Shown piece by piece: positions 1,866 through 59,076 of a stretch of DNA of 64,000 nucleotides. The notes under the pieces are model-generated. The model had not been told where the DNA came from and made no database searches. It saw only the letters and a list, made by a program, of their open reading frames with translations. Each line of letters opens with the position of its first letter. The stretch's first letter is position 1. Both the position numbers and the translations under genes were made by a program. Origin of the DNA: Lentisphaeria bacterium (lineage in GTDB: Bacteria > Verrucomicrobiota > Lentisphaeria > Victivallales > UBA1829); the NCBI GenBank assembly GCA_017615635.1, contig JAFZZR010000079.1:1-64000 (forward strand), read 5' to 3'.

Positions 1866-1891
1866 ACCCTTTCCCCGGCGGACCGGACTCC

Positions 1892-3112: not shown

Positions 3113-3147
3113 CGGTCATCCTGCCCTTCCACCTCAACGCAGGTGCT

Positions 3148-3172
3148 GCGCCCCGGTATCAGAACGGGGCGC
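3148..3172. terminator. Hairpin between convergent genes
   Basis: GCGCCCCG, a nine-base loop and CGGGGCGC form a perfect eight-pair GC stem (extendable by one T-A pair) between the MFS gene and the symporter gene, which converge here. There is no long T run, so it is either a weak bidirectional terminator or a mRNA 3' end stabiliser. Confidence 0.5.
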
Positions 3173-3202
3173 ACCAGCCGAAGAAGACTGGCCTTTCCGG
3201 GA

Positions 3203-5521
3203 TCAGGACTGTTTCCTGTCGCCGGAGGCTGCCGAAGCCTTATCCACGGCTTCCAGCTGGGCTTTGTCGGCCAGGGACATATTGCCTTCCACCATGCCGT
3301 TGTCCAGGGCGTTGACCTGCGTCCGGGCGGCCAGATCGCGGAACATCTGCTTCATGTCGATGACTCCTCCGATGAGGAACCAGACCATGGAGATCACCGC
3401 GACAATGCATCCGACCACCACGGAGATGATGAAGAGGCGCCATCCCCACCATTCGGCGGGCCAGCGGTAGAAGGCGTTCCAGACGATAGTGCCGATATAG
3501 AAGAGGCCGAAGGAGATGCCGAAACTGTAGATGAAGGTGCCCCAGGCGATGCATTTATCGCCGAAGGTGTAGTCGGGCGTGATCCCGATGATCTTCTTGA
3601 AGGCGTTCCTGAATGTCAGCTTTTCGAAGTGCTTGATCTCACCGTCCACGGCGTACTTCCCGCGGTGCAGCATGCGGTTCAGATTGAACGGCCGGCGGCA
3701 GGTAAGCCGGGAGACGACGCAGTACATGGCGATGCTCAGGATCATGGCGATGAACATGATCTCGGTGGAGTTGATGGGGAACTTCACGGCGTCCATGCGC
3801 CAGAGAATCCACGGCTCGAAGGGGCCGCTCAAGGTCTCCAGCAGACGGGAGAAGAAGGGGATCATGCCCATGCGGTCGAGGAAGGGATACACGTAATCCG
3901 GCCAGTTCCGCTGAACCAGCATGCCGCCGCCGGAAACCACCGCGCCCGTCAGGATCGAGGCGTATGCTCCGGCTGTGGTTCCGAACCGGGTATACAGTCC
4001 GCCGATCATCACCGCTCCGGCGCCGCCGCCCCAGATGGCTCCCACCACCGTCATATACAGGTTGATGTAGTCCAGCTGGACCATGTAAAGGGAGGCGAAG
4101 AAATAGAGGATGCAGATGAGCACAGTCAGGACTTTGATCATGAGAATGTGCGTCTTCGGATCCAGCGGCGTCTTGCGGAACGGCAGAATGACGTCCTGCA
4201 TGACCGACATGGCCGCACTGAAGATGTGACTGTCGTCCGAGGATACCATGAGCATCAGCATCAGCAGAATGAAGACGCCGATGAGCGCGCCCGGCAGGAT
4301 GTGGCGGAACGCCACCGGCAGACGCAGCTGATTGTACAGAGTGCGGAACTCCTGGAATTTTGCATTGCCTTCCGGCGTGTCGCCCAGCGTCTCCTTGACC
4401 GTATCCAGATAGGGCGTATCCAGATTCTTTTTCTCCGAAAGAGGCTCGTCCTTGCCGATGATGTGGATCTGTTCCGGGATCGCCGCAGTCCTGGCTCTCA
4501 GCTCGTTCCGCATCTCCTCGTCCTGAATGATCTCGCCCACGATCCGGCTGCACATTTCCGTCCGGATCTCTTTCGCTTTCGGCGCATAATGCACGTGATT
4601 CATCACCACCAGGATCATGCCGCCCATCAGCAGATAGAAAAGCGGATTGAATCCGTTTCGCCAGGCGCCGAGGATGCCCGCCATCTTCTGCTCGTGGGCC
4701 GTCCGGGCCGCCGAGGAGGCGCCGCCGCCGAACCAGTTTCCGCGGTTCAGAATACCGGCAAAGATGGTGACGATCGCCGCAAACAAGTTGAAGTCGCGCA
4801 AGGACTTGATATCATACGGGTTGATAAAGCTCTCGCCCGCTACGCGGTCCGCCATCACCGGCACGATCTCATCCCACCACGAGAAGCTCAGGATGATGTA
4901 CATGGTGAAGATGAAGATGATCGGGTAGGTGAGGAGTCCCTGGATCGTGTCGGTGATCAGCAGCGCCATGGAGCCGCCGGCCAGCAGAATGGTGGCGGCC
5001 AGAATCAGAACGATCCCGATCACCAGCGCCAGGCTTTGGATCTTGAATCCGAAAATATCGATATAGTGCGGAATGCCCAGCAGATAGATGAAGAACCGAG
5101 CCGAGATCGCCGGCAGGATCATGTTGGAAAGCAGTTCCACCGAGGTCCTCAGACATGCGCAGAACAGCCGGAACGGACGGTTGTACCGCATCTCCAGAAA
5201 CTGCCCGATGCTCAATGCCTTCGTCTCACGGAGACGATACGTCACGAATCCGGTCAGCGAGACGATCAGCGAGATCGGCGCCGCGAATCCGCCCCAGAAT
5301 CCGGTGGAGAATCCGGTTCGGTAGTGGACTTCGATATAGGCGATCAGGAACATGACGCTCAACCCGGCCTCCATGCCGCCCACCGAGAGCAGATACCGTC
5401 CGCAGAGCCGTCCGCCCGCCAGAAAGTCCGGGATCCCGCGGATGTACTTCCGGGTGTGGAAGGCCATGTAGAGAACGAAAGAAAACGGGACGATGGCGAT
5501 CAGCCAGTTGTACCAGGTCAT
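3203..5521 (-). CDS. Sodium:solute symporter family (SSS) protein
   Basis: 772 aa, far longer than the usual 500-550. The N-terminal half has the SSS pattern (loop SDF-like IPDFLAGGRLCG near 30, then GLSVMFLIAYIEVHYRTGF and SMALLITDTIQGLL near 184-197). Residues about 310-408 form a hydrophilic, charged insertion between two membrane segments, and the C-terminus adds three further hydrophobic segments and a charged tail. Transport of a sugar or organic acid with sodium is the family role; the solute is not predictable. It is a single-gene unit with AGGAG ten bases before the ATG and a possible -10 TATATT at 5561-5566. It lies between the MFS gene and a glycosidase module. Confidence 0.88.
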   Translation of the reverse strand: MTWYNWLIAIVPFSFVLYMAFHTRKYIRGIPDFLAGGRLCGRYLLSVGGMEAGLSVMFLIAYIEVHYRTGFSTGFWGGFAAPISLIVSLTGFVTYRLRETKALSIGQFLEMRYNRPFRLFCACLRTSVELLSNMILPAISARFFIYLLGIPHYIDIFGFKIQSLALVIGIVLILAATILLAGGSMALLITDTIQGLLTYPIIFIFTMYIILSFSWWDEIVPVMADRVAGESFINPYDIKSLRDFNLFAAIVTIFAGILNRGNWFGGGASSAARTAHEQKMAGILGAWRNGFNPLFYLLMGGMILVVMNHVHYAPKAKEIRTEMCSRIVGEIIQDEEMRNELRARTAAIPEQIHIIGKDEPLSEKKNLDTPYLDTVKETLGDTPEGNAKFQEFRTLYNQLRLPVAFRHILPGALIGVFILLMLMLMVSSDDSHIFSAAMSVMQDVILPFRKTPLDPKTHILMIKVLTVLICILYFFASLYMVQLDYINLYMTVVGAIWGGGAGAVMIGGLYTRFGTTAGAYASILTGAVVSGGGMLVQRNWPDYVYPFLDRMGMIPFFSRLLETLSGPFEPWILWRMDAVKFPINSTEIMFIAMILSIAMYCVVSRLTCRRPFNLNRMLHRGKYAVDGEIKHFEKLTFRNAFKKIIGITPDYTFGDKCIAWGTFIYSFGISFGLFYIGTIVWNAFYRWPAEWWGWRLFIISVVVGCIVAVISMVWFLIGGVIDMKQMFRDLAARTQVNALDNGMVEGNMSLADKAQLEAVDKASAASGDRKQS

Positions 5522-12504: not shown

Positions 12505-15500
12505 ATGCTGCTGAACTTTCGAATCGACTGGGGATATCAGTATCTCTATTCCCGCAGACACTATCATCCGTTCTATCACTGGGACGGTCATCTGGAATGC
12601 TCGGCGGGGATAATCCGGAAGGTCTTTCAGCTGGAATATCCGGTGATCTGGTTCGGACCCGGTCACTGCGCCCATGAAACGCTGCTCGACGGGCCATCGT
12701 GGAAAAGCACTACGAGGCGCGGACTCAGCGGGATCCGGATCGAGGCGGACGTGCCCGAGGATGCCGTTTTCAAACTGGTCACGATGTCCGGCTCGTTCGA
12801 GTTCCGGGCGGGCGATGTCCGGGACAAAGGACGGATCGAGTTTCCCGTCGGTCCGAAATACCTGGGATGTCACGTGATCGTGACCCGGATCGGATACTAC
12901 TGGTTTCAGCCGAAGGCGAGGCCGGGGCAGATGATCTTGGAGGCGGACGATCTGGCGAAAAGCGTGCCCGTGCACGACTGGGCGAGGATGCGCACCGCCT
13001 GGATCGAGCCCGGCGGTCAGGCGGAATTCGAGGCGGATCTCCCGGAGACCCGCGGGGACAGCGATGAAACGATCCTCCACATAGTGGCCATGGCGGCGCC
13101 GGAATACACGCCCGGCGCGGAAAAACAGATCCATGACGAGTTTCCGCTGACGCTTCTCTGCGACGGCAAGGTCGTGGCGGAGGGGCGTCATTATTTCCGC
13201 GAGCACGACGCCTATATGCAGATGCTGGAAGATGTCTGGCTCCGGTTCCCCGCCGTCTCGGGAAAACATCATTTCCACCTCAAAAACGGAAACGGGCGGT
13301 TCTTCCTGCTTGTCACGCGCCTGATCCTTCAGCAGTCGGAGCACCGGCATCTGGAATTCTCTCTGCCGCCCTGGGCTCTGGCCGGCGAACCGCTGATCGG
13401 ACGGATCTTCGCCGCCCGGAAGGACCGGACCGTCGTCCGCTGGGAGGACGGGCAGATGAGCCTGGATTTGCAGCCGGGCTGGAACGAGTTCGCCTTTTCC
13501 GTCTCCGCGCCGGGCCGGGATGTGGAGGTCTCCACGGATACGACACGCGGCGTCATCCCCGCGGTCTACGCACTGAAGGACGAGGCTCCGGAAGTGACGG
13601 TTGGGTACGACATGACCGTGGTGCCTCACGACGGCAACGGGTTCATGGACTGGCTTTTGGACTACACCTGGCGGACGCGGCTGGGAAATCTGGTGGTGTT
13701 CCGGTCGTTTCGGAGGCTGGGCCCCGAAACGCACGAGCGTGAGGAGATATCGGATGACCTGCTGTCACGCTGGGGGGATTTCTGCCGCCGTCACCGGATC
13801 CACGTGGAGGCTGCCAACTGCTACGAAAGCGGGGCTCTGGTGAAGTCGTCGGGCGAAATGATCCACAGCGTTGGCCGTCATGAATGGCCGGGTGCGGTGT
13901 ATGCGTTCGATCCGGGCTTCGAATGGAGGTCCGAGGATATGAAAACGGCCATGGAGCACTGCCTGGCGCGCCTGAAGATCGAAATCGACAAAGCGCACAA
14001 GGTCTGCCGCCGCGCCGCCTTCGGGGATGCCTCCGGCGGACACCGCTACTGCTATCTGGCGGGAGCGGATTTCATCCGGACGGAGACCATGGTACCGCAT
14101 ACGCAGCATCTCTGCTCCCAGGCCCGGCCCGCGGCGGAGGCTCTTTCCGACGGGGAATGGGGCGTCCACATTGCGATCCAGCACGCGTTTCAGCCGTATT
14201 ATGAGACGCATCTCGGCGTGTACTTCCTTTCCCTGTTCCAGCCCTGGATGATGGGGGCCTCCATGATCTATGAGGAGGACAGTCTGTTCCAGCTCTTCAA
14301 GGAGGAACGGCAGGCATGGGACGACCGTCTAACCAAGGGGAAACGGGATATGACGCGGGAGTTTTTCCGCTTCGTCAAGACCCATCCGCGCAAAGGAACG
14401 CCCACGCGGAAGATCGCGTTCGTGGAGGGGCGGTACGCCGCGCCCTTCAACGGTTTCATCTGCGATACGGATCAGGATCCCGACTACGCCGTCTGGGGCC
14501 TCTTCGGCAAGAACGATCCGCTCTGGGGACACCGTCAGCCTGAAAAATGCCGTCAGCTCCTGGACGTGCTGATGCCCGGCGCCAGCACGCAGCCGCTGAG
14601 GCAGGACTTCACCCGCCGGAGATTCTTCTTCTCCGGCACGCCCTACGGCGACTTCGATGAAGTTCCCACCGAGGCAAAACCCGAATACTTCGACCGCTAC
14701 TCTCTTCTGCTTCATCTCGGCTGGAACACCATGATCCGGGAGGATTACGACAAGCTCGCCCGTTTCGTGGATAACGGAGGTACTCTGCTGATAGGCCTTC
14801 CGCAGTTCAGCCGGCACGTGCGGAGGGATTTCCTTGAAGACATGATGGATCTCGACCTCTGGAACGAGGGTGACCTCTCCGATCTCTGCGGACTCAAGGT
14901 CAAGGGGCCCGGCAAGTGCTATTCCGGTCAGTGGAACACGTCCGGACGCGAGCAGGCCTTCATCCCGGTACTTTCCGGGATCCCCAGCAAGTCTCCGGAA
15001 GAAGACGGCCCCTGCCGTCTGGCCAAATTGGAAATGAATGGCGCGGAAGCCGTCATCTGGGATGCCATGACCGGCGAACCGCTGGTATGCCGCTTCCGCA
15101 AAGGCAAGGGGACCGTGTACGTTGTGACCGCGTACGCGTATCCGGGGCATGAAGCGCTCCGGGACGTCATGGCGTTTCTCATTGCGCGTCTGGCCTCGGA
15201 GAATCTGCCGGAAACCCGAGTGGACGATCCTTCCCGCGAAGTCTTCTGGAACGAATGGATCGAGGAGGATTCCGTTCGCCGTCTGATGCTCCTGAATACG
15301 GACTGGACGACTGCCGGGAATATAAAGTCCGTGCGCGTGGAAAGCGGAGACGTCCGGTTCGAAACGAATGTGGTCGAGCGCGAGGCGAAGATCCTCACCA
15401 TCCTGCCCGGCATGGTCCTGGAGCCGGACGATTTCTCCCTGCATCTGGAAATCACCGGAACGGGCACCATCCGCTGTCATGGCACGGGAATGCACCGGAT

Positions 15501-15585
15501 CACGATCCACAAGCCGGGGAACCGGACGGAGACCTGCACCGCGGATCTGACGGAGACCACGGTACAGGAAATCGTTCTTTCCTGA
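12505..15585 (+). CDS. Large GH42-like protein of unknown family, cytoplasmic
   Basis: 1026 aa without signal peptide; AAGGAGAG precedes the ATG. The first 350 residues look like one or two beta-sandwich domains. A middle region, about 370-700, has barrel-like alternation with candidate acidic clusters (IHVEAANCYESG near 435, MIYEEDSLFQ near 590). Residues about 730-890 have the amidotransferase-like fold seen in GH42 trimerisation domains (LLLHLGWNTMIREDYDKLA, FVDNGGTLLIGLPQ, then a GKGTVYVVTAYAYPG strand), followed by a C-terminal beta domain. It is alone between its own promoter and a strong terminator. An atypical glycosidase is the best guess; catalytic residues are not identified. Confidence 0.65.
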   Translation: MLLNFRIDWGYQYLYSRRHYHPFYHWDGHLECSAGIIRKVFQLEYPVIWFGPGHCAHETLLDGPSWKSTTRRGLSGIRIEADVPEDAVFKLVTMSGSFEFRAGDVRDKGRIEFPVGPKYLGCHVIVTRIGYYWFQPKARPGQMILEADDLAKSVPVHDWARMRTAWIEPGGQAEFEADLPETRGDSDETILHIVAMAAPEYTPGAEKQIHDEFPLTLLCDGKVVAEGRHYFREHDAYMQMLEDVWLRFPAVSGKHHFHLKNGNGRFFLLVTRLILQQSEHRHLEFSLPPWALAGEPLIGRIFAARKDRTVVRWEDGQMSLDLQPGWNEFAFSVSAPGRDVEVSTDTTRGVIPAVYALKDEAPEVTVGYDMTVVPHDGNGFMDWLLDYTWRTRLGNLVVFRSFRRLGPETHEREEISDDLLSRWGDFCRRHRIHVEAANCYESGALVKSSGEMIHSVGRHEWPGAVYAFDPGFEWRSEDMKTAMEHCLARLKIEIDKAHKVCRRAAFGDASGGHRYCYLAGADFIRTETMVPHTQHLCSQARPAAEALSDGEWGVHIAIQHAFQPYYETHLGVYFLSLFQPWMMGASMIYEEDSLFQLFKEERQAWDDRLTKGKRDMTREFFRFVKTHPRKGTPTRKIAFVEGRYAAPFNGFICDTDQDPDYAVWGLFGKNDPLWGHRQPEKCRQLLDVLMPGASTQPLRQDFTRRRFFFSGTPYGDFDEVPTEAKPEYFDRYSLLLHLGWNTMIREDYDKLARFVDNGGTLLIGLPQFSRHVRRDFLEDMMDLDLWNEGDLSDLCGLKVKGPGKCYSGQWNTSGREQAFIPVLSGIPSKSPEEDGPCRLAKLEMNGAEAVIWDAMTGEPLVCRFRKGKGTVYVVTAYAYPGHEALRDVMAFLIARLASENLPETRVDDPSREVFWNEWIEEDSVRRLMLLNTDWTTAGNIKSVRVESGDVRFETNVVEREAKILTILPGMVLEPDDFSLHLEITGTGTIRCHGTGMHRITIHKPGNRTETCTADLTETTVQEIVLS

Positions 15586-15713: not shown

Positions 15714-16601
15714 ATGAAGCCGACACAGACTTCGAAAACTCTGCTGAAGATCCAGCAGGGATACACGTCGTTTCACGGAAATTATATCCGGATCGCGGAC
15801 CGGATCCTGGAAAATCCCTCGGTGGTGATCCGGGACAAGGTTGCGGATGCGGCGGCAGCCTGCGGGTGCGACAATGCGCAGATCATCCGTTTCTGTCAGA
15901 AACTGGGCTTCAAAGGTTTTTCCGACATGAAGCAGGCGCTGATCCACGACCTGATTCCGTTTCATACGAAGGTCGGTTCCTCCGAGCTTGACCGGAAAAC
16001 CGGCTTCCAGCGTCTGGTGCAGGACGTCCGGACCGGATACCAGCGCACGATCAACGATACGCTCGCCGTATTCGATGAAGCCGAGTTCCTGAAAACGGCC
16101 GCAGCTGTCCGTCAGGCAGGCCGGATCATGATCTGCGGAACGGGCGCCTCCGGGATCGTGGGCGAGGACCTTCAGATGAAGCTGAGCCGGATGGGGTATC
16201 CCGTCTGCTGTTACGGGGATCCCATGACCCGGCGGATGCTTTGCGCGCTTCTGACGGGGAAGGATCTGCTGATCGCGATCTCCTTCCGCGGACAGAACAG
16301 CGAGGTGCTGGACTGCGTGAAGATCGCCCGCGCGAACGGCTGCCGGATCGCCTCTATTACCAACTGCCGGACGTCGCCGCTGGCGGAGATGAGCGATCTC
16401 ACGCTTCTGACTGCAGCGGAAGAGGACGATTTCCGGATCGGCGCCATGACCTCGCGTTTCGCGCAGCTGATGGTGGTGGATTTTCTCTCCGTCATCATTG
16501 CTTCGAAAGACCAGAAGGCGGGCCGTTCGCTCGCCAGAACTTATGCCGTACTCGATCGGGCGGCAAAAAAATCCAATCCACAGAAGGAGAACAAACGATG
16601 A
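15714..16601 (+). CDS. RpiR/MurR family transcriptional regulator with SIS domain
   Basis: 295 aa. The N-terminal 75 residues form the RpiR helix-turn-helix (ADRILENPSVVIRDKVADAA then NAQIIRFCQKLGFKGFSDMK). Residues about 125-265 are a sugar-isomerase (SIS) domain, with ICGTGASGIVGEDLQMKLSR at the start, expected to bind a sugar phosphate. GGAGGTGAT gives a strong ribosome site. Its stop overlaps the next ATG by four bases (ATGA). Being first in an operon that encodes a mannose-6-phosphate isomerase and a sugar kinase, it likely senses a phosphorylated product of that pathway and represses its own promoter through the 13-bp repeats. Confidence 0.92.
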   Translation: MKPTQTSKTLLKIQQGYTSFHGNYIRIADRILENPSVVIRDKVADAAAACGCDNAQIIRFCQKLGFKGFSDMKQALIHDLIPFHTKVGSSELDRKTGFQRLVQDVRTGYQRTINDTLAVFDEAEFLKTAAAVRQAGRIMICGTGASGIVGEDLQMKLSRMGYPVCCYGDPMTRRMLCALLTGKDLLIAISFRGQNSEVLDCVKIARANGCRIASITNCRTSPLAEMSDLTLLTAAEEDDFRIGAMTSRFAQLMVVDFLSVIIASKDQKAGRSLARTYAVLDRAAKKSNPQKENKR

Positions 16602-18382
16602 GTTTCATGTTCAACCCCTATCCCTATGTCGATCCCAAGGCGGTCAACTTCCCCGGCATCCCTGCGGATGCGGTGAAATCCGTCGTACGGGGAAATGCGA
16701 AAATCGGGAGCCAGCTGGCCGGGATCCCGGGCATTCTGCTGCTGGACGGGTATGTGGGCGCCTCGTTTTCCGAGCTTCTTACAAGGATCCGCGAGGCAAA
16801 TCCCGATACCGTCTTCTTCGATATTTCCGAAGCGTACAAGTCTTCGGAGGAGATGGACTCGCTTCTGGCGGAGTCCCTGCCTGTCGACCGTGTGATCGAC
16901 CCCATTCTTCTCTTCGGCAAAAGCGTTCACCGGGAACTGGATTCCCTGTTCGATCCGGCGAAACTTCAAACCCTGACTGCGCGGATCCGCGAGGCTGCCG
17001 CAGGGAAAAAATCTGTGGTCGTCCATGGCTGCGGCGCCGCCTGCGGTCAGATCCGGGCGCTCGGAGCAAAGGTTGCGTTCATCGACACGACGCCGCTGAC
17101 GACAACGCTGCGGATTCGGGCGGGAAAGGTCAAGCCGCTGGCGGACAAGGAGACTCGCACGCTTCCTTATATCTTCCGCCGGATGTACTATTATGATTAT
17201 GAAATTATGATGCTTCACCGGAAGCAGCTGATGGATGCCGGAGCGCTGGATTTCTATATCGACGGCAATGCGGTGGACGATCTCCGGATGATCTCCTTCA
17301 CCGAACTTGAAAACATCTTCGGCGAACTTATCAAGCGTCCCTTCCGGTGCACCCCTGTCTACCTCGAGGGCGTCTGGGGCGGAAAATATGTGATGGAGCT
17401 GCGGGATCTTCCGAAGGAGATGCGGAACTGCGCCTGGGTGTTCGACATGATTCCCAACGAGGTCAGCGTGCAGGTGAAGGCCGGGCCGTGCATCTTCAAT
17501 ATCCCGTTCTCCACGTTCTTCCGTCACTGCAGCGAAAAGCTCATGGGCGAGGAGAGCGTGAAGCGGTTCGGGAACGTCTTCCCGATCCGGTTCAACTACG
17601 ACGACACCTACGGCGGAAGCGGAAACATGTCGATCCAGGTTCATCCGCCGCAAAAGTACAATCAGGAGCATTTCGGCGAGCCCTTCCAGCAGGACGAGAG
17701 CTATTACTGCGTGAAAACCGCCGGAAGCAAGACCTATCAGGGATTGCGGGACGACTGCGATGTGGACGAGTTTTTCCGCTGCATCGACCGGGCGGAAAAG
17801 GAACATGTTCCCTTCGATCATGACAAGTACGTGAACTCCTTCCCCAGTGAGGCGGGCGATCAGTATCTGCTGCCCGGCGGGACCATTCACGCATCCGGCC
17901 GGAATCAGGTGATTCTGGAGATTGGCTCCTATACTATCGGAAGCTATACTTTCAAGCTGTACGACTACCTCCGCAAGGACCTGGACGGCAATCCCCGCCC
18001 GATCCATTCCATTCACGGGAAGAACGTCCTCGTGACCGACCGCCGCCGTTCGAAAATCGACGGTGTTCTGCGTCCGAAGCCCCGCACGGTCCGCGAGGGG
18101 GATGGCTGGAAGGAGGAGATCGTGGGCGAGCACGACCTGATCTATTTCAGTCTGCGGCGCCTGAGCTTCGACCGGAACATTTCCGACTGTACGAACGGGA
18201 AATTCCATGTGCTGACTCTGGTGGAAGGCGACGAAGTGCTGGTCTATTCCAAGGCCGATCCCACCCGCTGCTATCACCAGAAATTCATGGATATCGTTGT
18301 TGTCCCGGCCGATCTGGGCGAATATGGGATCATCAATCTGGGAACGGAACCATGCAAAGTCCACAAAGCTCATCTGAAGTAA
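16598..18382 (+). CDS. Class I mannose-6-phosphate isomerase with long N-terminal extension
   Basis: 594 aa; ordinary class I enzymes have about 310-390. The C-terminal half, from about residue 320, carries the cupin metal ligands in order: Q347 and H349 in SIQVHPPQK, E367 in QDESYY, H431 in LPGGTIHASGRN. This converts mannose-6-phosphate and fructose-6-phosphate. The first 250 residues are a separate alpha/beta domain with KKSVVVHGCGAACGQ near 137-151, which looks like a degenerate nucleotide-binding loop; related long PMIs with kinase-like N-termini are known in Firmicutes by my recollection. ATG chosen for its ATGA overlap with rpiR and the AGAAGGAGA site upstream. Confidence 0.85.
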   Translation: MSFMFNPYPYVDPKAVNFPGIPADAVKSVVRGNAKIGSQLAGIPGILLLDGYVGASFSELLTRIREANPDTVFFDISEAYKSSEEMDSLLAESLPVDRVIDPILLFGKSVHRELDSLFDPAKLQTLTARIREAAAGKKSVVVHGCGAACGQIRALGAKVAFIDTTPLTTTLRIRAGKVKPLADKETRTLPYIFRRMYYYDYEIMMLHRKQLMDAGALDFYIDGNAVDDLRMISFTELENIFGELIKRPFRCTPVYLEGVWGGKYVMELRDLPKEMRNCAWVFDMIPNEVSVQVKAGPCIFNIPFSTFFRHCSEKLMGEESVKRFGNVFPIRFNYDDTYGGSGNMSIQVHPPQKYNQEHFGEPFQQDESYYCVKTAGSKTYQGLRDDCDVDEFFRCIDRAEKEHVPFDHDKYVNSFPSEAGDQYLLPGGTIHASGRNQVILEIGSYTIGSYTFKLYDYLRKDLDGNPRPIHSIHGKNVLVTDRRRSKIDGVLRPKPRTVREGDGWKEEIVGEHDLIYFSLRRLSFDRNISDCTNGKFHVLTLVEGDEVLVYSKADPTRCYHQKFMDIVVVPADLGEYGIINLGTEPCKVHKAHLK

Positions 18383-20295
18383 TTCTGGCCCTGGATATCG
18401 GCGGCACCTTCATCAAGTCCGCCCTGTTCCAGAATGGTCAACTGATCCGGAAATTGCCGCAGGTCCCCAGCCGGTCCGAGGGAACACGCGAGGAGATCGG
18501 CGAGGCCATCCGCACTGCGATCCGTCAGGCCGGCGCGCCGGACCGTCTGGCCGTTTCCATTCCGGGGCCCTTCGACTACAAAAACGGCATTTTTCGGGCG
18601 GAACACAAGTTCGCGGCCGTCTGCGGATGCGCCTTTTCGGAGTTCTCCGGGGGGCTTCCCGCCTCCTTCGTTCACGATGCCAATGCCTTTCTTCTGGGCG
18701 AACTCCTGCACGGGGCAGGGCGCGGATTCCTCCGCGTCGGCGCGGTCACGCTGGGCACCGGTCTGGGCGCGGCCTTTGCGATCGGCGGCGATCTGCAGCT
18801 CAATGCGCAGGGAAGTCCCACCGACAGCGTTTCCCTGTGGAACAAGCCGTACAGGGACGGCATTGCGGAGGACTATGTTTCCGCCCGTGCGCTGCTGAAG
18901 GATTATCCCGCGCCCGGCGGAAAAGAAATCGCGGAAGCCGCCGAAACGGGCGATCCCCGTGCGCTGGAGGCCTGGCGACGGTACAGCCTCGATCTTTATG
19001 CGCTTCTGGCGGACTGGAAAGCACGGCTGGAGCTGGACGTCATCGTCGTCGGCGGTCAGCTTCGGAGCGGGCTTCGCTTCGGAGTGCCCGTCCCGGCCGG
19101 ACTGAATCTCCGGTTTTCGAGCCTCGACGGGGATGCGCCTCTCTGGGGTGCTCTGGAAGCCTCCGGAAAGGCGGAAACGCTTCCTGAGCCCGGGGAGGAT
19201 ATGATCCGCCGTTCCATCCTTTCCACGGGAAACGTTCACCGGTTTCATGAATTTTTCCGGCGTGCAGAGTCCGGCTGCGAGCTGACGCTGGGCGTGCTTG
19301 GAGGTTCCATTACCCGGGGCGCCGCCTGTCCTGAACCGGAGAAACGGTATCACGGCGTCCTGCTGGACTGGCTTCGTTCGCAGTTCCCCCGGAGCCGCTT
19401 CTCCCTGGTCAATGCGGGTATCGGGGCTACCGATTCCGTGTACGGCTCGTTCCGGGCACAACGGGATCTGCTTTCGCACAAGCCCGATCTGGTTGTGCTG
19501 GAATACGCAGTGAACGACACCGATCAGGCGCAGTGGGCGCAGAGTTACGAGGGATGCATCCGGCAGATCCTTGCAGACGGATGTCCTCTGCTTCTGCTTT
19601 TCATGACTCACAATCATCAGCGGAACTGTCAGCGGTTTCAGACGGTGCTCGGCCGTCATTACGGCCTGCCCATGGTGAGCTGGCACGATGCCGTCATGCC
19701 GGAACTCATGCGGGGCAGCCTCGCATGGGAGAATCTCAGCCCCGATGCCGTGCATCCGAATCCCGCCGCCCACAGCCTCGCCGGAAAACTTCTGTGCGCG
19801 TTGATGGAGAAGATCCGGACGCAGGCGGATGAGCCGGAATCTCCCATTCCGGAGCCTTTGATTTCGAAGGAATTTCAGTACACGTTCCTGCTGGAAAAGG
19901 ATTCGTTTCGTCCGGAGACACTCGAAGGCTGGGAGGAAACTCCCGGGGAGGAGCCTCAGAAGTACTGGTTCCGCCGACGCTGGTTCGCCTCGCGGCCCGG
20001 CAGCCGGATGACCTTCTCCTTCGTGGGGGCGTCACTCTGGATCTCCTACCTCGGGATCCAGGGGCCCGCGGGGCGGATCTCCGTCCGGGTCGACGATTGT
20101 CCACCGGTCCTGGTGGACAGCTATTTCCCTCACGACTGGCCGGATCCCAAACAGATGTGGGCGCCCGTGCTCACCGGCCTGCCGGAAGGAAAACACCGGG
20201 CTGTCATTACGCTCCTTGACGAACATCATCCCGAAGGCGGCACGGAATTCTATTTCTGCGCAGCCGCCGGAACAGGAAAGGAATCTGCAAAATGA
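18352..20295 (+). CDS. Fusion of a ROK-family sugar kinase and an SGNH/GDSL hydrolase
   Basis: 647 aa. Residues 10-270 are a ROK kinase: ATP-binding ALDIGGTFIKSALF at 13-26, candidate catalytic base D109 in FVHDANAFLLGEL, and TLGTGLGAAFAIGG at 133-146. The zinc-binding Cys-x-Cys-Gly motif typical of many ROK proteins is absent. Residues about 310-490 are an SGNH esterase: block I GVLGGSIT with S319, block II NAGIG, block III AVND with N388, block V D465-x-x-H468. Residues 500-645 form a beta-sandwich. The start overlaps the PMI gene by 31 bases and the stop overlaps the GH42 start by four. Likely deacetylates and phosphorylates a sugar before isomerisation. Confidence 0.88.
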   Translation: MQSPQSSSEVILALDIGGTFIKSALFQNGQLIRKLPQVPSRSEGTREEIGEAIRTAIRQAGAPDRLAVSIPGPFDYKNGIFRAEHKFAAVCGCAFSEFSGGLPASFVHDANAFLLGELLHGAGRGFLRVGAVTLGTGLGAAFAIGGDLQLNAQGSPTDSVSLWNKPYRDGIAEDYVSARALLKDYPAPGGKEIAEAAETGDPRALEAWRRYSLDLYALLADWKARLELDVIVVGGQLRSGLRFGVPVPAGLNLRFSSLDGDAPLWGALEASGKAETLPEPGEDMIRRSILSTGNVHRFHEFFRRAESGCELTLGVLGGSITRGAACPEPEKRYHGVLLDWLRSQFPRSRFSLVNAGIGATDSVYGSFRAQRDLLSHKPDLVVLEYAVNDTDQAQWAQSYEGCIRQILADGCPLLLLFMTHNHQRNCQRFQTVLGRHYGLPMVSWHDAVMPELMRGSLAWENLSPDAVHPNPAAHSLAGKLLCALMEKIRTQADEPESPIPEPLISKEFQYTFLLEKDSFRPETLEGWEETPGEEPQKYWFRRRWFASRPGSRMTFSFVGASLWISYLGIQGPAGRISVRVDDCPPVLVDSYFPHDWPDPKQMWAPVLTGLPEGKHRAVITLLDEHHPEGGTEFYFCAAAGTGKESAK

Positions 20296-22355
20296 GTATT
20301 TTCACCCTGGGATCCATGTATTGGGTCAATCCGAAATATTCTCTGGATGATTTCCGTGCCGACATGCGGCGCGTCAAGGAAAACAAGCTCACGTTTCTCC
20401 GTACCTTCATTCAGTGGGAATACGTGGAAGTGGAACGGGACAAATTCGATTTTTCCATTTTCGATCCTTTTTTCCAGGCTGCGGCGGAGGAGGGGATCGG
20501 CCTTATGCCCACTTTGCTTTTCTATCTGCCCTTCCACCGCCGCGTGGAACAGATGAATAACGGACGCTCCGATGATCCGCGGCGGTATCCCTGCCTGGAC
20601 CGGCCGGAGATCCGCGAGGGCGTGGAGCGCTTTTTCACCGAGACGGTGGAACATTTCAAGGACTCTCCCGCGCTGAAGGTGTGGAATCTGTGGAACGAGC
20701 CCACGGATCCGGTCTGCCACTGTCCCGACACCCTGGAGAAGTTCGCCTCCTGGCTGAAACGGAAATATCCGGATATGGCCGCCCTCAGAGAGGCCTGGGC
20801 GGGCGAATACTACATTTTCAACCCGATCCTGCCCCGGTCCATGGATGAACTGACCGGCGCATGGCTGAAGCAGCTCTTCGATCTTCCTCTTCGGGGAAGG
20901 GACACCGCTATGAGGCTGGATGCCTTCGAGTTCCAAAACCGGAATGCGGTGGAGCATGTGGCCTGGCTCGCCTCCATCATCCGCAGGATCGATCCGGCTC
21001 ACGAGATCCATTCCAATCCAGCTTGCACCACGGTCAATCCTCTGGCGGGCAGCGGCTACTCTCCCTGGGAACTGGCTCAGGTTCAGGACAGCATTTCCGG
21101 TTCGATCCATCCTCACGGCATGCTGCCTCACCTGGAGCCCGATCCGGAGAAATATCCACGCACCATGGCATCCGTCATGGATCTGATACGGTCCTGGGCT
21201 GACGGGAAAGAGGCGTGGATCGGCGAATATCAGGGCGGTTCCACGTATGGAAAGCCGCACGCCTACACGCCGCGCGGAGCCGATATTTCCGCCACGCTCT
21301 ATCATTCGCTGGCCCGCGGACTGAAGGGCCTGATCTACTGGGAATGGCAGTCCTGGCGCCAGAGCCTTTTTGAGACGGCGGAGTTCAGCCTCCGGAATCC
21401 CTCGGACGGCGGACCTACGGAACGCTCGGAGGCCACCCGGCAGTTCGGAGAATTTCTGGAAACGCACAAATCCGAACTTGAAGGACTTCAGACACCGTGC
21501 CCGCAGGTCGCCATCCTGCATTCCATGGACCAGTTTGCCGCGGAGCCGCTTCTGGATACCGTACGCTGGATCCCCTCCCATTATGCCGCAGCCTATGCAG
21601 CCCATCAGTCTCTTCTCCGGGCCGGGATTCCCTGCGACTTCATCACCGAGTCCCAGCTCAGCCCGGAGCGGCTGAACCGGTACAAAGTCCTCATCCTGCC
21701 TCATGTCCGGATCATCGCGCCGGAGACTGCCTCCGCCATCGCCGATTTCGTCGAAGCCGGCGGAGCCCTGTGGGCCGACGGACGCTGCGGCTACCTGGAC
21801 AAACATCATTTTCTGCGGTCCGTCGTGCCCGGCAACGGTCTCGACCGCGTGTTCGGCTGCCGCGAGATCGACGAGGTTGCTCCGTTCGAAGACGACCGCC
21901 TGATCCTCAAAGACGGCTCCTCCGTGAAGCCGTGGCGCGAGATCCAGCGTCTGGAAGCGTATGAAAACGCCGAAGTCCTGGCCGAATGCAACGGATATCC
22001 CGCCGCCGTCCGCAACCGCTTCGGAAAAGGCACCGCCGAACTCTGGGGCACCTATCTTTCGGTCAACCGGGAAGCCGATCTTTCGAAGTTCCTGCCCGGA
22101 TTCGCTGAAGCGCACGGCGTAACGCCGGATATCCGGATCCGCCGCGGAGACGATGTCTTCGCCTCCCTGATTCGGGGAAAGAACGTCCTTCTGGCGGTCT
22201 TCACCTCCGTCTCGAAAGCGGAGCAGAGCGTGTCGGCGGAAATCCCGGTCCGGAATGGCTCGATCCTCAACGGATCCTCTGCCTCGCTCGATGGAAACAC
22301 GCTTTCTTTCACACTCCGGCCCGGAGAAACCGTACCGTTTTTGATCCGGGAGTAA
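20292..22355 (+). CDS. GH42 beta-galactosidase-type enzyme
   Basis: 687 aa, the size of GH42 enzymes, with no signal peptide. The barrel shows the acid/base motif VWNLWNEP with E136 and the nucleophile motif WIGEYQGG with E312. The amidotransferase-like trimerisation domain follows (residues about 395-585: VAILHSMDQFAAEPLLD, YKVLILPHVRIIAPETASAI), then a short beta domain. It ends the RpiR operon, suggesting that it releases galactose or a related sugar from an imported oligosaccharide that the fusion kinase/esterase and isomerase then process. The start codon overlaps the previous stop (ATGA). Confidence 0.9.
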   Translation: MSIFTLGSMYWVNPKYSLDDFRADMRRVKENKLTFLRTFIQWEYVEVERDKFDFSIFDPFFQAAAEEGIGLMPTLLFYLPFHRRVEQMNNGRSDDPRRYPCLDRPEIREGVERFFTETVEHFKDSPALKVWNLWNEPTDPVCHCPDTLEKFASWLKRKYPDMAALREAWAGEYYIFNPILPRSMDELTGAWLKQLFDLPLRGRDTAMRLDAFEFQNRNAVEHVAWLASIIRRIDPAHEIHSNPACTTVNPLAGSGYSPWELAQVQDSISGSIHPHGMLPHLEPDPEKYPRTMASVMDLIRSWADGKEAWIGEYQGGSTYGKPHAYTPRGADISATLYHSLARGLKGLIYWEWQSWRQSLFETAEFSLRNPSDGGPTERSEATRQFGEFLETHKSELEGLQTPCPQVAILHSMDQFAAEPLLDTVRWIPSHYAAAYAAHQSLLRAGIPCDFITESQLSPERLNRYKVLILPHVRIIAPETASAIADFVEAGGALWADGRCGYLDKHHFLRSVVPGNGLDRVFGCREIDEVAPFEDDRLILKDGSSVKPWREIQRLEAYENAEVLAECNGYPAAVRNRFGKGTAELWGTYLSVNREADLSKFLPGFAEAHGVTPDIRIRRGDDVFASLIRGKNVLLAVFTSVSKAEQSVSAEIPVRNGSILNGSSASLDGNTLSFTLRPGETVPFLIRE

Positions 22356-28147: not shown

Positions 28148-28179
28148 TCCGGCGGGGTTATTCCTCCGAGGTGAATGCG
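28148..28179. repeat. 32-bp direct repeat, right copy, overlapping the esterase gene end
   Basis: Same sequence as 22361-22392 with two differences. It covers the last codons and stop of the sialate O-acetylesterase gene plus ten bases beyond. Together the copies flank the four-gene GntR cassette. Confidence 0.75.
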
Positions 28180-30110
28180 GCGGCGGGAAATTCGCGGTTG
28201 AAGAGAATGCTCACGGGATTGTACGACCAGGCATAGCGGACGTACAGAGGTTTCTCCACCTTCTCCGAATTCAGCACCAGGGAATCGCCGGAAATCCCGG
28301 CATTGTCCGCCGGATAAAATTTCCGGTCGGCGCCCGCCAGGTAAAAGCTTTTGCCCGGATGATCGTGCAGGGTCATTCCTTCTGCGTACCGGAAGAATAC
28401 CCGGAGCGATTTTCCTTCCGGCTGCGCTTTCACGAATTCGGGACCGCAGGGGAGGATGTCCTTCTTTCCGTAGACGTGATGAAGGGCCGAGGCGGCGAGG
28501 CGGCGTCCGATCTCTTTTTTGTTCTGGGGATGAATGTCATTTTCCTCGCCCGTATCCAGTGCCGTGATCAGGTGAACGTCCGGGAGATCCCCGCAGACTT
28601 TGAGCTGGGTATCCCGGAGAACGGCCCAGGTGGACTGGTCATCATAGTCGCTGGCTTCGCGGTAATCGGCCAGCTGGACTTGGAGAATAGGCAGATCCGG
28701 CTGTTCGAACTGGAAGCGCCAGTCGCGGATCAGCATTCCCATTTTTTTCCGATAGGACCCGGCCGCGGCGATCGTTTCCGTGTTGCTTTCGCCCTGATAC
28801 CAGATGACGCCCCGGATCGAGGCGGGAAGCAGGGGCCGGACCATGGAATCGAACAGCATGCCGGGCGTGCCTACGTTGTTGAATCCGTAAGGCATCCTGC
28901 TCAGAAGTCTTCCGAAGTCGACTTCCGCCTTTGCCTTCCATTCGCCGGCCAGGGACAGGGAGAAATCGGGTCCGTCCAGCGTGTAAGCGTCGGCGGGCGG
29001 CATGAAGGCGCCGTCCCAGGCAAAGGAGTAGCCCCGGATGGCCAGGGTATTTTCGCCGGGGCGCACCAGATTGCCCGGGATCGTATAACAGCGGGGCTTG
29101 TCGAAGAATGCTACGTCAAGATCTTTTCCGGTGCGTCCGACCTCTATGCCGTTGAAGTACGTTGTGTCATGCTTGTCGACGCCGCCGAGATGGAGAACAA
29201 GTTCCTTGCCTGCCAGCGATTCCGGGATGCAGACCTTCTTCCGGATCCAGACTGCTCCGTTTCCGGCGATGCCCTGATTGATCCAGCTGCCGGGGACCTG
29301 CATGGCCGTCCACGAAGAATCATCCAGCGCCGGATCGGCCCAGCCCTGTTCGAATCCTTTGTTTTCGCGGTTGGGCGTGGCGTATCTGCTGAGAAAATCT
29401 TCCCGGGTTATGGGCGGTTCCGTCCAGAGAGCCTTTCCCCGCTTCCAGGTTTCCCAGGCCTCCAGCATTTCGCGTGTTTCGGGGTCGCCTTTGAGGGAAG
29501 ACGGACTGATCCAGGTCTCCACCTTGGAGCCGCCCCAGGAACAGCAGATCAGCCCGACGGGGATGTTCAGCGTATCGCGGAGCTTCCGCCCGAACCAGGC
29601 GGCCACGGCCGAAGCTGCCGACGCGTTTTCCCTGTCTATCGGCCGCCACGAGCCCTCGAAGTACGGCTCCCGGCATCCGGTGGCGATCATGGGGACGGTG
29701 ATGAACCGGAAGGTTTCCGGCTTCGTGATCGAATCCAGAAATTCTTTTTCCTGACGGACGTTCACGGGCTCCGATCCGTCTTCCGGAAGAGCCTTGGCCC
29801 AGCGGGAGCCCAGGGTGTACTGCATATTGGACTGTCCGGAACAAAGCCACACGTCGCCGATGAAAACATCCTTCAGGATAACGGATTCCTCCGGGTTTTC
29901 CGTGACGGAGATTTTCAGCTCGAACGGACCTCCGGCATCCAGAGGGGCCAGCTGAATCAGAAAACCGCCGCCGCGGGAGGATTTCGCGTATCCCTCCTGT
30001 CCGGCGAGCTCCGCCCGGACCAGTACGCCGGGAACGGTCTCGCCCCAGATGGAGATGGTTTTATTTCTCTGTAAGACGGCGCCATCCGTAAAAATGGATG
30101 CGAGTTTCAT
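28158..30110 (-). CDS. Sialate O-acetylesterase family protein (SASA)
   Basis: 650 aa, typical of the SASA family. SGNH features: CSGQSNMQYTL with candidate nucleophile S94, IWYQGESN near 447, and DIHPQNK near 527 with the catalytic Asp/His. A jelly-roll, GH2 sugar-binding-like insert separates the catalytic halves (about residues 260-370: SWTAMQVPGSWINQ, WIRKKVCIPESLAGKELVLH). No signal peptide, so it probably removes O-acetyl groups from imported sugars in the cytoplasm. It overlaps the AraC regulator stop by four bases and is the last gene of the GH78 / AraC / SASA unit. Confidence 0.92.
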   Translation of the reverse strand: MKLASIFTDGAVLQRNKTISIWGETVPGVLVRAELAGQEGYAKSSRGGGFLIQLAPLDAGGPFELKISVTENPEESVILKDVFIGDVWLCSGQSNMQYTLGSRWAKALPEDGSEPVNVRQEKEFLDSITKPETFRFITVPMIATGCREPYFEGSWRPIDRENASAASAVAAWFGRKLRDTLNIPVGLICCSWGGSKVETWISPSSLKGDPETREMLEAWETWKRGKALWTEPPITREDFLSRYATPNRENKGFEQGWADPALDDSSWTAMQVPGSWINQGIAGNGAVWIRKKVCIPESLAGKELVLHLGGVDKHDTTYFNGIEVGRTGKDLDVAFFDKPRCYTIPGNLVRPGENTLAIRGYSFAWDGAFMPPADAYTLDGPDFSLSLAGEWKAKAEVDFGRLLSRMPYGFNNVGTPGMLFDSMVRPLLPASIRGVIWYQGESNTETIAAAGSYRKKMGMLIRDWRFQFEQPDLPILQVQLADYREASDYDDQSTWAVLRDTQLKVCGDLPDVHLITALDTGEENDIHPQNKKEIGRRLAASALHHVYGKKDILPCGPEFVKAQPEGKSLRVFFRYAEGMTLHDHPGKSFYLAGADRKFYPADNAGISGDSLVLNSEKVEKPLYVRYAWSYNPVSILFNREFPAAAFTSEE

Positions 30111-31009
30111 GATTTATGTCTCCTTGATTTGCGTTTTTTCTCGACGTTTCCAAATTTTTTGCGATAGTCTTCCGGCGAAATATGATAGATCGCCATGAAG
30201 GACCGGTAGAAGCTGGAGTACGATCCGTAATTGCAGTAATCGGAAATTTCCTTGCAGCTGCAGTTGCTCTTCTCAAGCAGATTCAAGGCCGCGCTCAAAC
30301 GCTGTCCCGCACGGTACTTCTGCAGCGTCTGTCCCGTTTCCTTGTGGAAAATGCGGGACATGTGCTCGCGCGACAATCCCAGACGCTGCGCCAGCGCGGT
30401 GGTGGAGATCGGTTCGCAGAATGCGTAGGCGAGTTCCTTTTCCATTTCCCGGCTGAGGTGTTTTCCCGGCCGGGTATCCTGCAGGGTTTTTCCGGGGAAA
30501 CACAGTTCGTTCATCAGGTCGAAGAAAATCTTTGCGCCCTCCAGCGGTGAAACGAAGAACCGAGCGCCGGAATGCTTGAGAAATGCCTTGAGATATTTTT
30601 TCAGCGAGTCGTTTTTCAGGATGAAGAAATATCCGTACACGGCGTTGATCTCGCGAATGATCCTTTCCGAGGCTTCTCCGGCGAAGCTGATCCACAGGAA
30701 CCGCCACTCCTCTTCGCTTTCCGGCGGCACAAGATACGAGACCTGCGGATCGCAGTCGGTATGCAGGAACGCCGTGCCCGGAACGCAGTCGAATGTCTTG
30801 TCTCCCACGTTCAGAATGCCATGCCCTGCGGTCGTTATGGTAAGCTGTCCGCCCGTGAATTTCGGGATGTTTTCCGGATCGGTGAGGGGCATGCGGTAGC
30901 CCGCCTTTTCGCTTTCCTCCACCACCATGGCGGGGCAGGGGAGCGAAGGGCAGACGTTTTCCGAGGAAAAGGAGACGCTGCGCATACGGATCTTCTCAAG
31001 TTCGAGCAT
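30107..31009 (-). CDS. AraC-family transcriptional regulator
   Basis: 300 aa. The N-terminal two thirds form a cupin-like ligand-binding domain (GHGILNVGDKTFDCVPGTAF) and residues about 190-290 carry two helix-turn-helix motifs, ending in the family signature YGSYSSFYRSFMAIYHISPEDYRKKFG. It lies inside the GH78 / SASA operon, so it probably activates this unit in response to a released sugar such as rhamnose or an acetylated sugar; the ligand is a guess. Start ATG with a weak GAGGT upstream. Confidence 0.92.
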   Translation of the reverse strand: MLELEKIRMRSVSFSSENVCPSLPCPAMVVEESEKAGYRMPLTDPENIPKFTGGQLTITTAGHGILNVGDKTFDCVPGTAFLHTDCDPQVSYLVPPESEEEWRFLWISFAGEASERIIREINAVYGYFFILKNDSLKKYLKAFLKHSGARFFVSPLEGAKIFFDLMNELCFPGKTLQDTRPGKHLSREMEKELAYAFCEPISTTALAQRLGLSREHMSRIFHKETGQTLQKYRAGQRLSAALNLLEKSNCSCKEISDYCNYGSYSSFYRSFMAIYHISPEDYRKKFGNVEKKRKSRRHKS

Positions 31010-31060
31010 GGATCTTATACCTCGTTTTCAAAAATGTCGTTCCGTTTGCGGCAGTTCCCG

Positions 31061-33397
31061 TCAGCGGTCGATGACGTGCAGTACGGCATTCTTTTCGGCG
31101 ACTGCCTCCAGCCCGACGGGCTTTTTCACGCGGATCTCCGGAACGCCGTCCGATCCGGTCCTCCAATCGACTTCGATCGGCCCCCGGGGCGTGGGGATCT
31201 CCCCGGAAGCGTGCGTGAGTCCGCAGGGCAGGGGATCGATCCGGAAGCGGGCGAATCCGGGTTCCAGCGGACTTACGCCCAGCAGGATATTCCCGCAGAA
31301 GAAGGGATAGATGCCGCTCCAGGCGTGACATAGACTGCCGGCGAAGCTGAAATCGTCGCCGCCCTCGCCGGTTTCCCACAGACTGGTGGCGCCGGAAAGC
31401 AGGATGGGATCGAAGATCTTCCGCAGACGGGGCAGGATCATGGCCCTGGCCCTGGAGCCGGACCGGTTCAGTCCGCGGAGCAGATAGAGGAGCGAGCTCA
31501 GGGTAGCGCTGTACATCGTGCCGTTTTCCAGATTGTCCAGCACCCGGTTCAGGCGGTCGTCCGGAAGATGGCCCAGCGTGAGGTACAGCGCCTGCATATG
31601 TTCGTAGAGTTTTCCTTCGTTGTCGTTCGCGGACAGGCTGATCCCTCCGCGCCGGGGGTCGAAGAAGTATTTTTCCACCGCCCGGATGATGGCTTCGGCC
31701 CGCTGCTTCAGAAAATCCGACCGGGCCGCATCGCCGTGGAACCGGTGCATCTTCGAGGCGGAAAGAAGAGCTTCCGCCAGATAAAGATTGTAGGGAGATT
31801 GCGGATGAACGTCGAGATGGCTCAACTCCTGCTGCCATTCGCAGAAGTTCCAGTATTTCTCGTCCGTTCCGGCGGAGTACAGATCGTCGAATCCCGGGAC
31901 CGCGTCGGCCAGCGCACGGTCGAGGATGGCGTCCACCTGAGCGCGGTACTTGTCGAAGATCCGGAAGGAACCGGAGAACATCATGTGCTCGGAAAGGGCG
32001 GTGATCCAGGCCATGGTGAAGATGGGGATCGGGCGGAAGGCGGTTCCGGGTGCGGTGAGGGTGAGATACCGTTCGCCGTCAAAGGATTTTCCCAGCAGAT
32101 CCAGGGAGGCGGCGGCGAAATCGCAGTTGCCCCAGACATAGTATCCGAAGAGCATCTGATTGCGCGAATCGTATCCGTACAGACTCTGTTCGCGCCAGGG
32201 ACAGTCCTCGTAGTGTTCGTGCATGCAGAGCGTCAGGGTCCGGATCGCCAGGTCCCGCTGAGCCACGATCATGGAATCCTCGCAGGAGAAGGCGGCTTTT
32301 TCGGGCAGGGGGATCTCGGAGGCGGCCAGACCGATACTGTTCAGCGACACGGTCCCGTTTTCCGGCACCTGCGTGATGTGCAGTTCGATATACCGGCAGC
32401 CGAAGCGCCGATGCCTCGTTGTGAAGCAGTTGCGTCCCGCCCGGCAGTGATACCGGTCTCCGAAATTCCGATTTCCGATAAATGCGCGCACACGGCCGTC
32501 GTCCAGATGCTCTCCGTGGGTGATGTCCACGATGGTCCCCTCGGGCGCTTCCAGATCCAGGGCGATGTATCCGACGGTTTCCCTGCCCAGATCGACCACA
32601 ATGAAATAGCCGTCGCAGCCCGGGAATTCGGAAAGGGGCTTGAAGGTGAATTTTTTGCCCGGCGCAAAGCGGAACTTCCGGCTGATGTACTGCTCTGTGA
32701 TCTGATCCTTGTCGTACTCCGAAAACAGCTCCTCGATCCGTCTGGGCGCACAGAAATCCCGCATGCAGGTCAACGCGAAGGAGGATTCCTCCCGCGGCCG
32801 CTTGAGCACGCCGAAAAGGCTGAGCGTCGCGTCATCGATATTCTGAAGCTCCAGCTGCGGGACCTGCCGCAGATGCAGTTCTCCCTTCGGAGAGACGATC
32901 ACCACCGGCCGATCGCAGCGCGTCTCCGGCGCATCGGCGTGATATTCGAAGGTGAATCCAAGCTGGCCTGTCAGTTTCGTGCGGAGGCTCTGTGTGTAGG
33001 CGTTGTCTTTCGCGCAGAGCCACGATCCGTCGGTTTTTGCCAGGATCTTGTCCCCGATGTATACCACCAGCTGAAGATAGCCGATCCCTTTCTGGCAGGT
33101 GAGAAAATCATCGCCGATGTAGTGCACGCCGCAGCGGATCCTGTTTTTTCCGATCCGCAGATATTTTTCCGCGGCGATCCGGGAGTACGTCCGGCTGTCG
33201 GGAAAATCGCTCAGCTGCTGAATGAGGACCGCCTGATCGTTGATGAAAAGTTCGAAGGTGGAATCTGCGGAAATTTCCAGCATGGCTCCCTGGATTTCCG
33301 CGGTTTCGAATTCTCCGGCAAACAGGTAGTAGGTATCCGGGGCGGGTTCTTTTTCGGCGAAGACCGGCTGCGCCTGATGGATCATTCCGGACGGCAT
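31061..33397 (-). CDS. Alpha-L-rhamnosidase-like protein (GH78)
   Basis: 778 aa without signal peptide. Two N-terminal beta-sandwich regions are followed by an (alpha/alpha)6 barrel. EHYEDCPWREQSLYGYDSR at about 395-412 matches the GH78 signature with its acidic residues, and SLWETGEGGDDFSFAGSLCH later in the barrel is the conserved active-site stretch; a C-terminal beta domain closes the protein (GEIPTPRGPIEVDW). It hydrolyses terminal alpha-L-rhamnosides in known relatives. CAGGAG lies eight bases before the ATG. It heads a unit with the AraC and SASA genes behind a well-formed promoter. Confidence 0.88.
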   Translation of the reverse strand: MPSGMIHQAQPVFAEKEPAPDTYYLFAGEFETAEIQGAMLEISADSTFELFINDQAVLIQQLSDFPDSRTYSRIAAEKYLRIGKNRIRCGVHYIGDDFLTCQKGIGYLQLVVYIGDKILAKTDGSWLCAKDNAYTQSLRTKLTGQLGFTFEYHADAPETRCDRPVVIVSPKGELHLRQVPQLELQNIDDATLSLFGVLKRPREESSFALTCMRDFCAPRRIEELFSEYDKDQITEQYISRKFRFAPGKKFTFKPLSEFPGCDGYFIVVDLGRETVGYIALDLEAPEGTIVDITHGEHLDDGRVRAFIGNRNFGDRYHCRAGRNCFTTRHRRFGCRYIELHITQVPENGTVSLNSIGLAASEIPLPEKAAFSCEDSMIVAQRDLAIRTLTLCMHEHYEDCPWREQSLYGYDSRNQMLFGYYVWGNCDFAAASLDLLGKSFDGERYLTLTAPGTAFRPIPIFTMAWITALSEHMMFSGSFRIFDKYRAQVDAILDRALADAVPGFDDLYSAGTDEKYWNFCEWQQELSHLDVHPQSPYNLYLAEALLSASKMHRFHGDAARSDFLKQRAEAIIRAVEKYFFDPRRGGISLSANDNEGKLYEHMQALYLTLGHLPDDRLNRVLDNLENGTMYSATLSSLLYLLRGLNRSGSRARAMILPRLRKIFDPILLSGATSLWETGEGGDDFSFAGSLCHAWSGIYPFFCGNILLGVSPLEPGFARFRIDPLPCGLTHASGEIPTPRGPIEVDWRTGSDGVPEIRVKKPVGLEAVAEKNAVLHVIDR

Positions 33398-59020: not shown

Positions 59021-59026
59021 GCCAAT

Positions 59027-59055
59027 AATGTACCGCCCGGCCCGTAAAAAATCAA
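59027..59055 (-). promoter_or_regulatory. Promoter of the ROK repressor, possibly leaderless
   Basis: Minus-strand TTGATT, 17 bases, TACATT, with the start codon seven bases after the -10. A second, weaker pair (TTGTCA, 17, TTTATT) at 59055-59083 would give a leader of about 30 bases. Confidence 0.5.
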
Positions 59056-59076
59056 ATAAAAAAGAGAAAAAAAGGC

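Follow-up and report, generated by a model that had tools for sequence, protein, structure and literature searches.

A single gene encoding a ROK kinase and a CE17-type acetylesterase in an RpiR/ManA operon of a Lentisphaeria bacterium

We have analysed a stretch of 64,000 nucleotides (nt) of contig JAFZZR010000079.1 from a Lentisphaeria bacterium (GenBank assembly GCA_017615635.1), hereafter the window, in which a ROK kinase and a CE17-type acetylesterase with a CBM35-like domain are encoded by one gene. The gene belongs to an operon at 15714-22355 that comprises an RpiR-family regulator, a ManA-like isomerase, the ROK-CE17 fusion and a GH42-like glycosidase, with successive genes overlapping at each junction (Table 1). 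The fused gene shares 31 nt (18352-18382) with the upstream isomerase gene and 4 nt (ATGA, 20292-20295) with the glycosidase gene. The parts are all of known kinds; their combination is new, was not found elsewhere among the genomes searched, and is represented so far by one metagenome-assembled genome (MAG).

Table 1. Features of the fused gene and its operon, with the basis of each assignment (aa, amino acids)
Feature	Coordinates	Strand	Basis
Fused gene, ROK kinase and CE17-type acetylesterase with CBM35-like domain (647 aa)	18352..20295	+	Open frame; Pfam; match to PDB 6hfz; AlphaFold model
ROK kinase half, complete (residues 1-~272)	18352..19167	+	Full-length alignment with 16 homologous ROK proteins
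Join (residues ~273-284, KAETLPEPGEDM)	19168..19203	+	No in-frame stops; codon usage; alignment of CE17 N-terminus
CE17-type half (residues ~277-643)	19180..20280	+	phmmer alignment with RiCE17 (6hfz); residues matched to PMC13276840
RpiR-family regulator (HTH_6 and SIS) that senses sugar phosphates; the operon's first gene	15714..16601	+	Pfam HTH_6 and SIS
ManA, class I mannose-6-phosphate isomerase homologue	16598..18382	+	PDB 1qwr; NCBIfam manA; conserved position
GH42/GH164-like glycosidase (687 aa)	20292..22355	+	Pfam GH42 (E = 1.3e-28); nearest structure 6t5o; acid/base E136, nucleophile E312

The fused gene and its two halves

In this assembly the fusion is one frame with zero internal stops. 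Pfam places a ROK domain at residues 12-237 (E = 2.9e-18) and a Lipase_GDSL_2 domain at residues 315-475 (E = 9.3e-14), each passing its curated cut-off, and the N-terminus (MQSPQSSSEVILALDIGGT) shows no evident signal peptide. An AlphaFold structure of the 647-residue protein, predicted from alignment A5, had a mean pLDDT of 86 and a pTM of 0.62. Foldseek returned 6hfz as its top match (TMt 0.86 over the two-domain chain) and matched the N-terminal half to ROK hexokinases with a probability of 1.00. Because of this pTM and of the low confidence at the join, where the linker is short and its block pLDDT is 62, the model does not fix the mutual placement of the halves. An earlier note, made from the sequence alone, had read the frame as a single chain of ROK kinase and SGNH esterase with a C-terminal beta-sandwich and gene overlaps on both sides, and all of this is borne out. 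The motifs it named are complete, and its key residues (D109 within HDANAF, S319, N388, D465 and H468) are invariant across the aligned homologues; the beta-sandwich, in which beta strands are predicted, corresponds in the alignment to the CBM35 portion of RiCE17. Its SGNH label likewise stands, but the more specific CE17 identity was missed.

Searched against solved structures, residues 288-643 match RiCE17, a mannan esterase of Roseburia intestinalis (6hfz), from one end to the other (E = 4e-51; identity about 28-30%). A profile of 21 homologues matched 6hfz at E = 1.3e-91, with the next SGNH protein at 1.4e-10. RiCE17 has the triad Ser41-Asp190-His193, an oxyanion Asn110 and a clamp Trp326 (PMC13276840), which correspond to S319, D465, H468, N388 and W596 of the fusion. 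The triad and oxyanion residues are invariant across 21 aligned sequences, and the SGNH domain also has N354 (in NAGIG). The CBM35-like domain, at residues ~500-643, aligns to the end of RiCE17 and has W596 at the position of Trp326; from these correspondences we identify the beta-sandwich as the clamp domain, of CBM35 type, that is found in CE17. The predicted activity of this half is most likely the removal of 2-O-acetyl groups from beta-mannan or manno-oligosaccharides, and its CE17 identity points to acetylated mannose.

On the CE17 tree this half lies on a long branch (0.99); its nearest relative is L081 of genome G321 (support 100/97), with long branches on both, and the contig of L081 also carries part of a GH42-like gene. 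According to a paper of 2026 (PMC13276840), Bacillota were the only source of described CE17. Judged by its relatives, which are Lentisphaerae MAGs, the host of the fusion is of another phylum, one without earlier described members in that account, and the predicted range of CE17 is thus extended. As judged by eye from their N-termini, many of the phylum's CE17-like genes (L079-L098) appear to have a signal peptide and others begin near the domain, so that the phylum seems to have both secreted and cytoplasmic forms.

The ROK half aligns over its entire length to its 16 homologues, which are mostly 271-303 aa long, with 33-55% identity; it matches stand-alone ROKs in length and retains every residue invariant in them. 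Its motifs are the DIGGT ATP motif (15-19), D109, LGTG (134-137), E173 and GGQ (234-236). Residues of the phosphate motif (D15 and G17-G18-T19), the catalytic Asp (D109) and the LGTG motif (T136-G137) are invariant across the 16 homologues. Typical ROK kinases carry a zinc-binding CxCGxxGC motif and a GExGH sugar motif. In the alignment, the ROK half and its ManA-ROK operon homologues lack the Cys motif for zinc as well as a canonical GExGH; of the GCxE part, E173 alone is kept. Of the solved structures, 3mcp, which comes from Parabacteroides and is named a glucokinase, is the best profile match of the ROK half and has the same altered stretch; the zinc-less ROKs are therefore a variant clade, and those of the ManA-ROK operon, as aligned, apparently form an uncharacterised ROK subfamily. 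Over residues 150-180 of the fusion (18799-18891), the operon ROKs mostly share GSPxxxVSLWNxPFRxGIxED (alignment A1). A reading of the first half as a ROK repressor was dropped, as a helix-turn-helix domain is absent. The window encodes another ROK protein (57851-59092), which has an N-terminal winged helix domain and is thus taken to be a ROK regulator.

Both halves are apparently complete, with intact catalytic residues, and neither looks inactive, contrary to a possibility raised in the earlier note; activity and specificity are predicted.

Operon neighbours and relatives

The RpiR gene lies near ManA-ROK in most relatives. The ManA-like protein matches PDB 1qwr over residues 244-575 (E = 5e-11), which gives it a cupin phosphomannose isomerase core; its NCBIfam manA score is under the cut-off and marks it as a divergent member. 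The core begins near residue 244 and is preceded by an extra ~240 N-terminal residues without a Pfam match. In the loci where the ManA-like protein is complete, this extended version is retained immediately ahead of ROK.

For the glycosidase, a single-sequence search of solved structures favoured the GH164 beta-mannosidase Bs164 (6t5o, 3.6e-22) over the best GH42 (1.7e-16). The GH42 neighbour of the earlier note thus keeps its Pfam assignment and is at least equally close to GH164; with 6t5o as its nearest solved relative, GH42 beta-galactosidase was dropped as the sole reading. The active-site residues of Bs164, Arg73, Asn159, Glu160, Glu297 and Trp336 (PMC7105311), align with R37, N135, E136, E312 and W350, which are invariant in the homologue alignment. 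The gene is compatible with a beta-mannosidase, judged from these residues, most of which are shared by GH42.

Upstream of the operon, a 1026-aa protein (12505-15585) gave no Pfam, NCBIfam or solved-structure match and has no counterpart in the operon loci of relatives. On the minus strand at 28158-33397, genes for a SASA acetylesterase, an AraC regulator and an alpha-L-rhamnosidase stand in a row and form a second acetylated-glycan cluster near the fusion.

ManA lies directly upstream of an esterase-free ROK at 17 loci of relatives, Lentisphaerae and Bacteroidia MAGs and one viral-collection contig among them, and the same 31-nt ManA/ROK overlap is found in nine of the closest. The relatives' operons are RpiR-ManA-ROK or RpiR-ManA-ROK-GH42; their ROK is a separate protein of ~270-300 aa, and CE17 genes lie elsewhere. 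Some of the same genomes have separate CE17 genes (e.g., G002, G321 and G229). The earlier note had suggested looking for separate genes in relatives, and ROK and CE17 are separate in every relative examined. A GH42-like gene follows the stand-alone ROK directly in G035 (two loci, with an overlap of 4 nt) and in G002, so that the CE17 part of the fusion occupies the point where rok and the glycosidase gene would otherwise meet. In this phylum CE17-like genes also adjoin rhamnosidases and SASA esterases, both of which occur in the window. The viral-collection contig (L043, IMGVR_UViG_3300001919_000283) carries its ManA-like and ROK pair at 1528-4057, which may reflect bacterial sequence binned as viral, or else a metabolic module that is carried along.

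No second ROK-CE17 fusion was found in the 36 genomes of the host's own family, the 137 of its order or the 198 of its class, nor in 388 genomes sampled evenly across the phylum or in 346 from another of its classes. Plasmids, viral contigs and one peptide-pattern scan of genome contigs also yielded none. A match in G143 spanning residues 162-586 was rejected, as it reads through a stop and on into the stretch preceding a CE17 gene that has an N-terminus of its own. A literature search of limited scope returned unrelated papers and no described ROK-SGNH fusion, in line with the earlier note.

Proposed pathway and rival explanations

We consider it probable, by a clear but not a wide margin of belief, that the fusion is genuine and joins, end to end, two entire cytoplasmic enzymes of one pathway, the use of acetylated mannose. 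In an RpiR-ManA-ROK-GH42 operon already in place, a CE17 gene would have come to stand behind rok and ahead of the GH42/GH164-like gene, with an in-frame junction to rok formed near residues 272-277. In the resulting protein the CE17 half would deacetylate imported acetylated manno-oligosaccharides or mannosides, most likely at the axial 2-O-acetyl of mannose, the downstream glycosidase would then free mannose, the ROK half would phosphorylate it at O6, and ManA would turn mannose-6-phosphate into fructose-6-phosphate. These substrates, the order of steps, the cytoplasmic location and any benefit of fusion are inferred. CE17 enzymes work intracellularly on imported manno-oligosaccharides in F. 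prausnitzii (PMC8262883). Since RiCE17 binds manno-oligosaccharides with the aid of its CBM35 clamp (PMC13276840) and Bs164 recognises the mannose 2-hydroxyl (PMC7105311), the acetyl group is most likely removed before the glycosidase acts. The earlier note had proposed a channelled order of release by GH42, deacetylation and phosphorylation; deacetylation probably precedes cleavage, and the fused steps would not be consecutive. With cleavage by the glycosidase intervening between the activities that are fused, direct substrate channelling is unlikely and was dropped as a reading. The fusion would instead mainly secure co-expression and a 1:1 enzyme ratio, fixed stoichiometry or co-location being a modest explanation. 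The proposal of an operon for an O-acetylated sugar is supported; among the sugars suggested with it, mannose is probable, given CE17, ManA and the GH164-like neighbour, while galactose has no particular support.

Several observations weigh against this account. The fusion is present in one genome only, a MAG of 204 contigs, and a close match is absent from the other genome of the same genus in the set searched. The sugar of the ROK half is uncertain because its clade is without the usual zinc Cys motif and canonical GExGH. With the modest identity to RiCE17 and the rhamnosidase and SASA neighbours, the substrate may not be mannan, and other acetylated sugars may be used. The profile of the glycosidase separates GH164 (6t5o, 162 bits) from GH42 (4oif, 153 bits) by a narrow margin, and no dedicated manno-oligosaccharide transporter was identified adjoining the operon.

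An assembly or sequencing error might have merged rok and CE17 genes that are actually adjacent and translationally coupled, as the earlier note had also allowed. The occurrence in a single MAG and the separation of the genes everywhere else searched would agree with this, as would the stops in other frames near the expected ROK end, TGA at 19185 (which would give 278 aa) and TGA at 19202, which overlaps an internal ATG at 19201 (M284) as ATGA; one indel would yield two ordinary genes. However, codon usage over residues 268-284 resembles frame-0 coding, with a frame-0 margin of 10.3 bits (real-codon median 10.5) that <=0.13% of out-of-frame stretches reach. Frame 0 has no ATG, GTG or TTG, and so no separate CE17 start, at residues 243-283, although residues ~263-284, upstream of M284, can be aligned with the native N-termini of sister CE17 genes; LPEPGED of the join corresponds to LPD-GER in L081 and LPDSAE in L079 (LPxxGE). 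The Shine-Dalgarno-like GGGGAGG lies merely 2 nt upstream of M284, and the main reading frames in the rest of the window look intact. Codon usage, N-terminal CE17 homology and the intact other frames together make a frameshift error unlikely at the join. A substitution that removed a stop escapes these tests and, whether genuine or erroneous, fits the sequence equally well. Overall we regard an error of either kind as improbable.

A stronger contender, to which we give somewhat less than an even chance, is the neutral loss of a stop codon that joined neighbours, so that the protein is functionally two separate enzymes. It overlaps with the fusion of two pathway enzymes favoured above and differs from it in denying a benefit. 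It accords with the short linker of low model confidence, with neighbours that already belong to one pathway and with the restriction to one lineage; nothing counts directly against it, as intact halves neither support nor exclude selection for fusion. We find it about as doubtful as an error that the fusion is real and that the activity of one half is gone or altered, for example with the ROK half reduced to a sugar-sensing or structural role, or with the CE17-like half directed at another acetylated sugar such as rhamnose. The missing zinc and GExGH motifs, the rhamnosidase and SASA esterase genes in the window and near relatives' CE17-like genes, and the long branch of the CE17 half would fit such a change. 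Set against it are the retention of all residues invariant in stand-alone ROKs, of the SGNH triad and of the clamp Trp, the sharing of the missing zinc motif with stand-alone ManA-ROK homologues, and the lack of a DNA-binding domain. Slightly less likely again is a selected bifunctional enzyme whose halves influence each other, e.g., with the rate of phosphorylation tied to deacetylation or with both held on a trimeric glycosidase; if true, it would to our knowledge be the first kinase-esterase single chain known in glycan catabolism.

If the fusion is natural, it is evidence that the CE17 esterase shares a pathway with the ManA-ROK pair, and it would tie the widespread operon of RpiR, ManA-like and zinc-less ROK genes to the use of acetylated mannose. 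It also offers a ready-made construct for asking whether joining non-consecutive steps helps.

Comparison with known systems

RiCE17 (PDB 6HFZ/6HH9, CAZy CE17) has the same SGNH-CBM35 order over its full length, with the same triad, Asn and Trp; the fusion differs in carrying CE17 behind a ROK kinase and in its limited identity to RiCE17. The closest counterparts of the ROK half are the stand-alone ROKs L035, L033 and L036, which are 43-55% identical, of equal length and in the same place behind ManA. The stand-alone ROKs of ManA-ROK loci stop about 8-16 residues past the invariant G266 and have no esterase, whereas the fusion continues. The glycosidase at 20292-22355 shares its barrel and trimerisation-domain layout and its catalytic residues with Bs164 (GH164, 6T5O) and with GH42 beta-galactosidases, at low identity to both. 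A ROK kinase is likewise joined to an enzyme of the same pathway in GNE, the UDP-GlcNAc 2-epimerase/ManNAc kinase, whose kinase structures 2yhw and 3eo3 are among the profile matches of the ROK half. In GNE the partner is a different enzyme, SGNH and CBM domains are lacking, and the ROK part is C-terminal.

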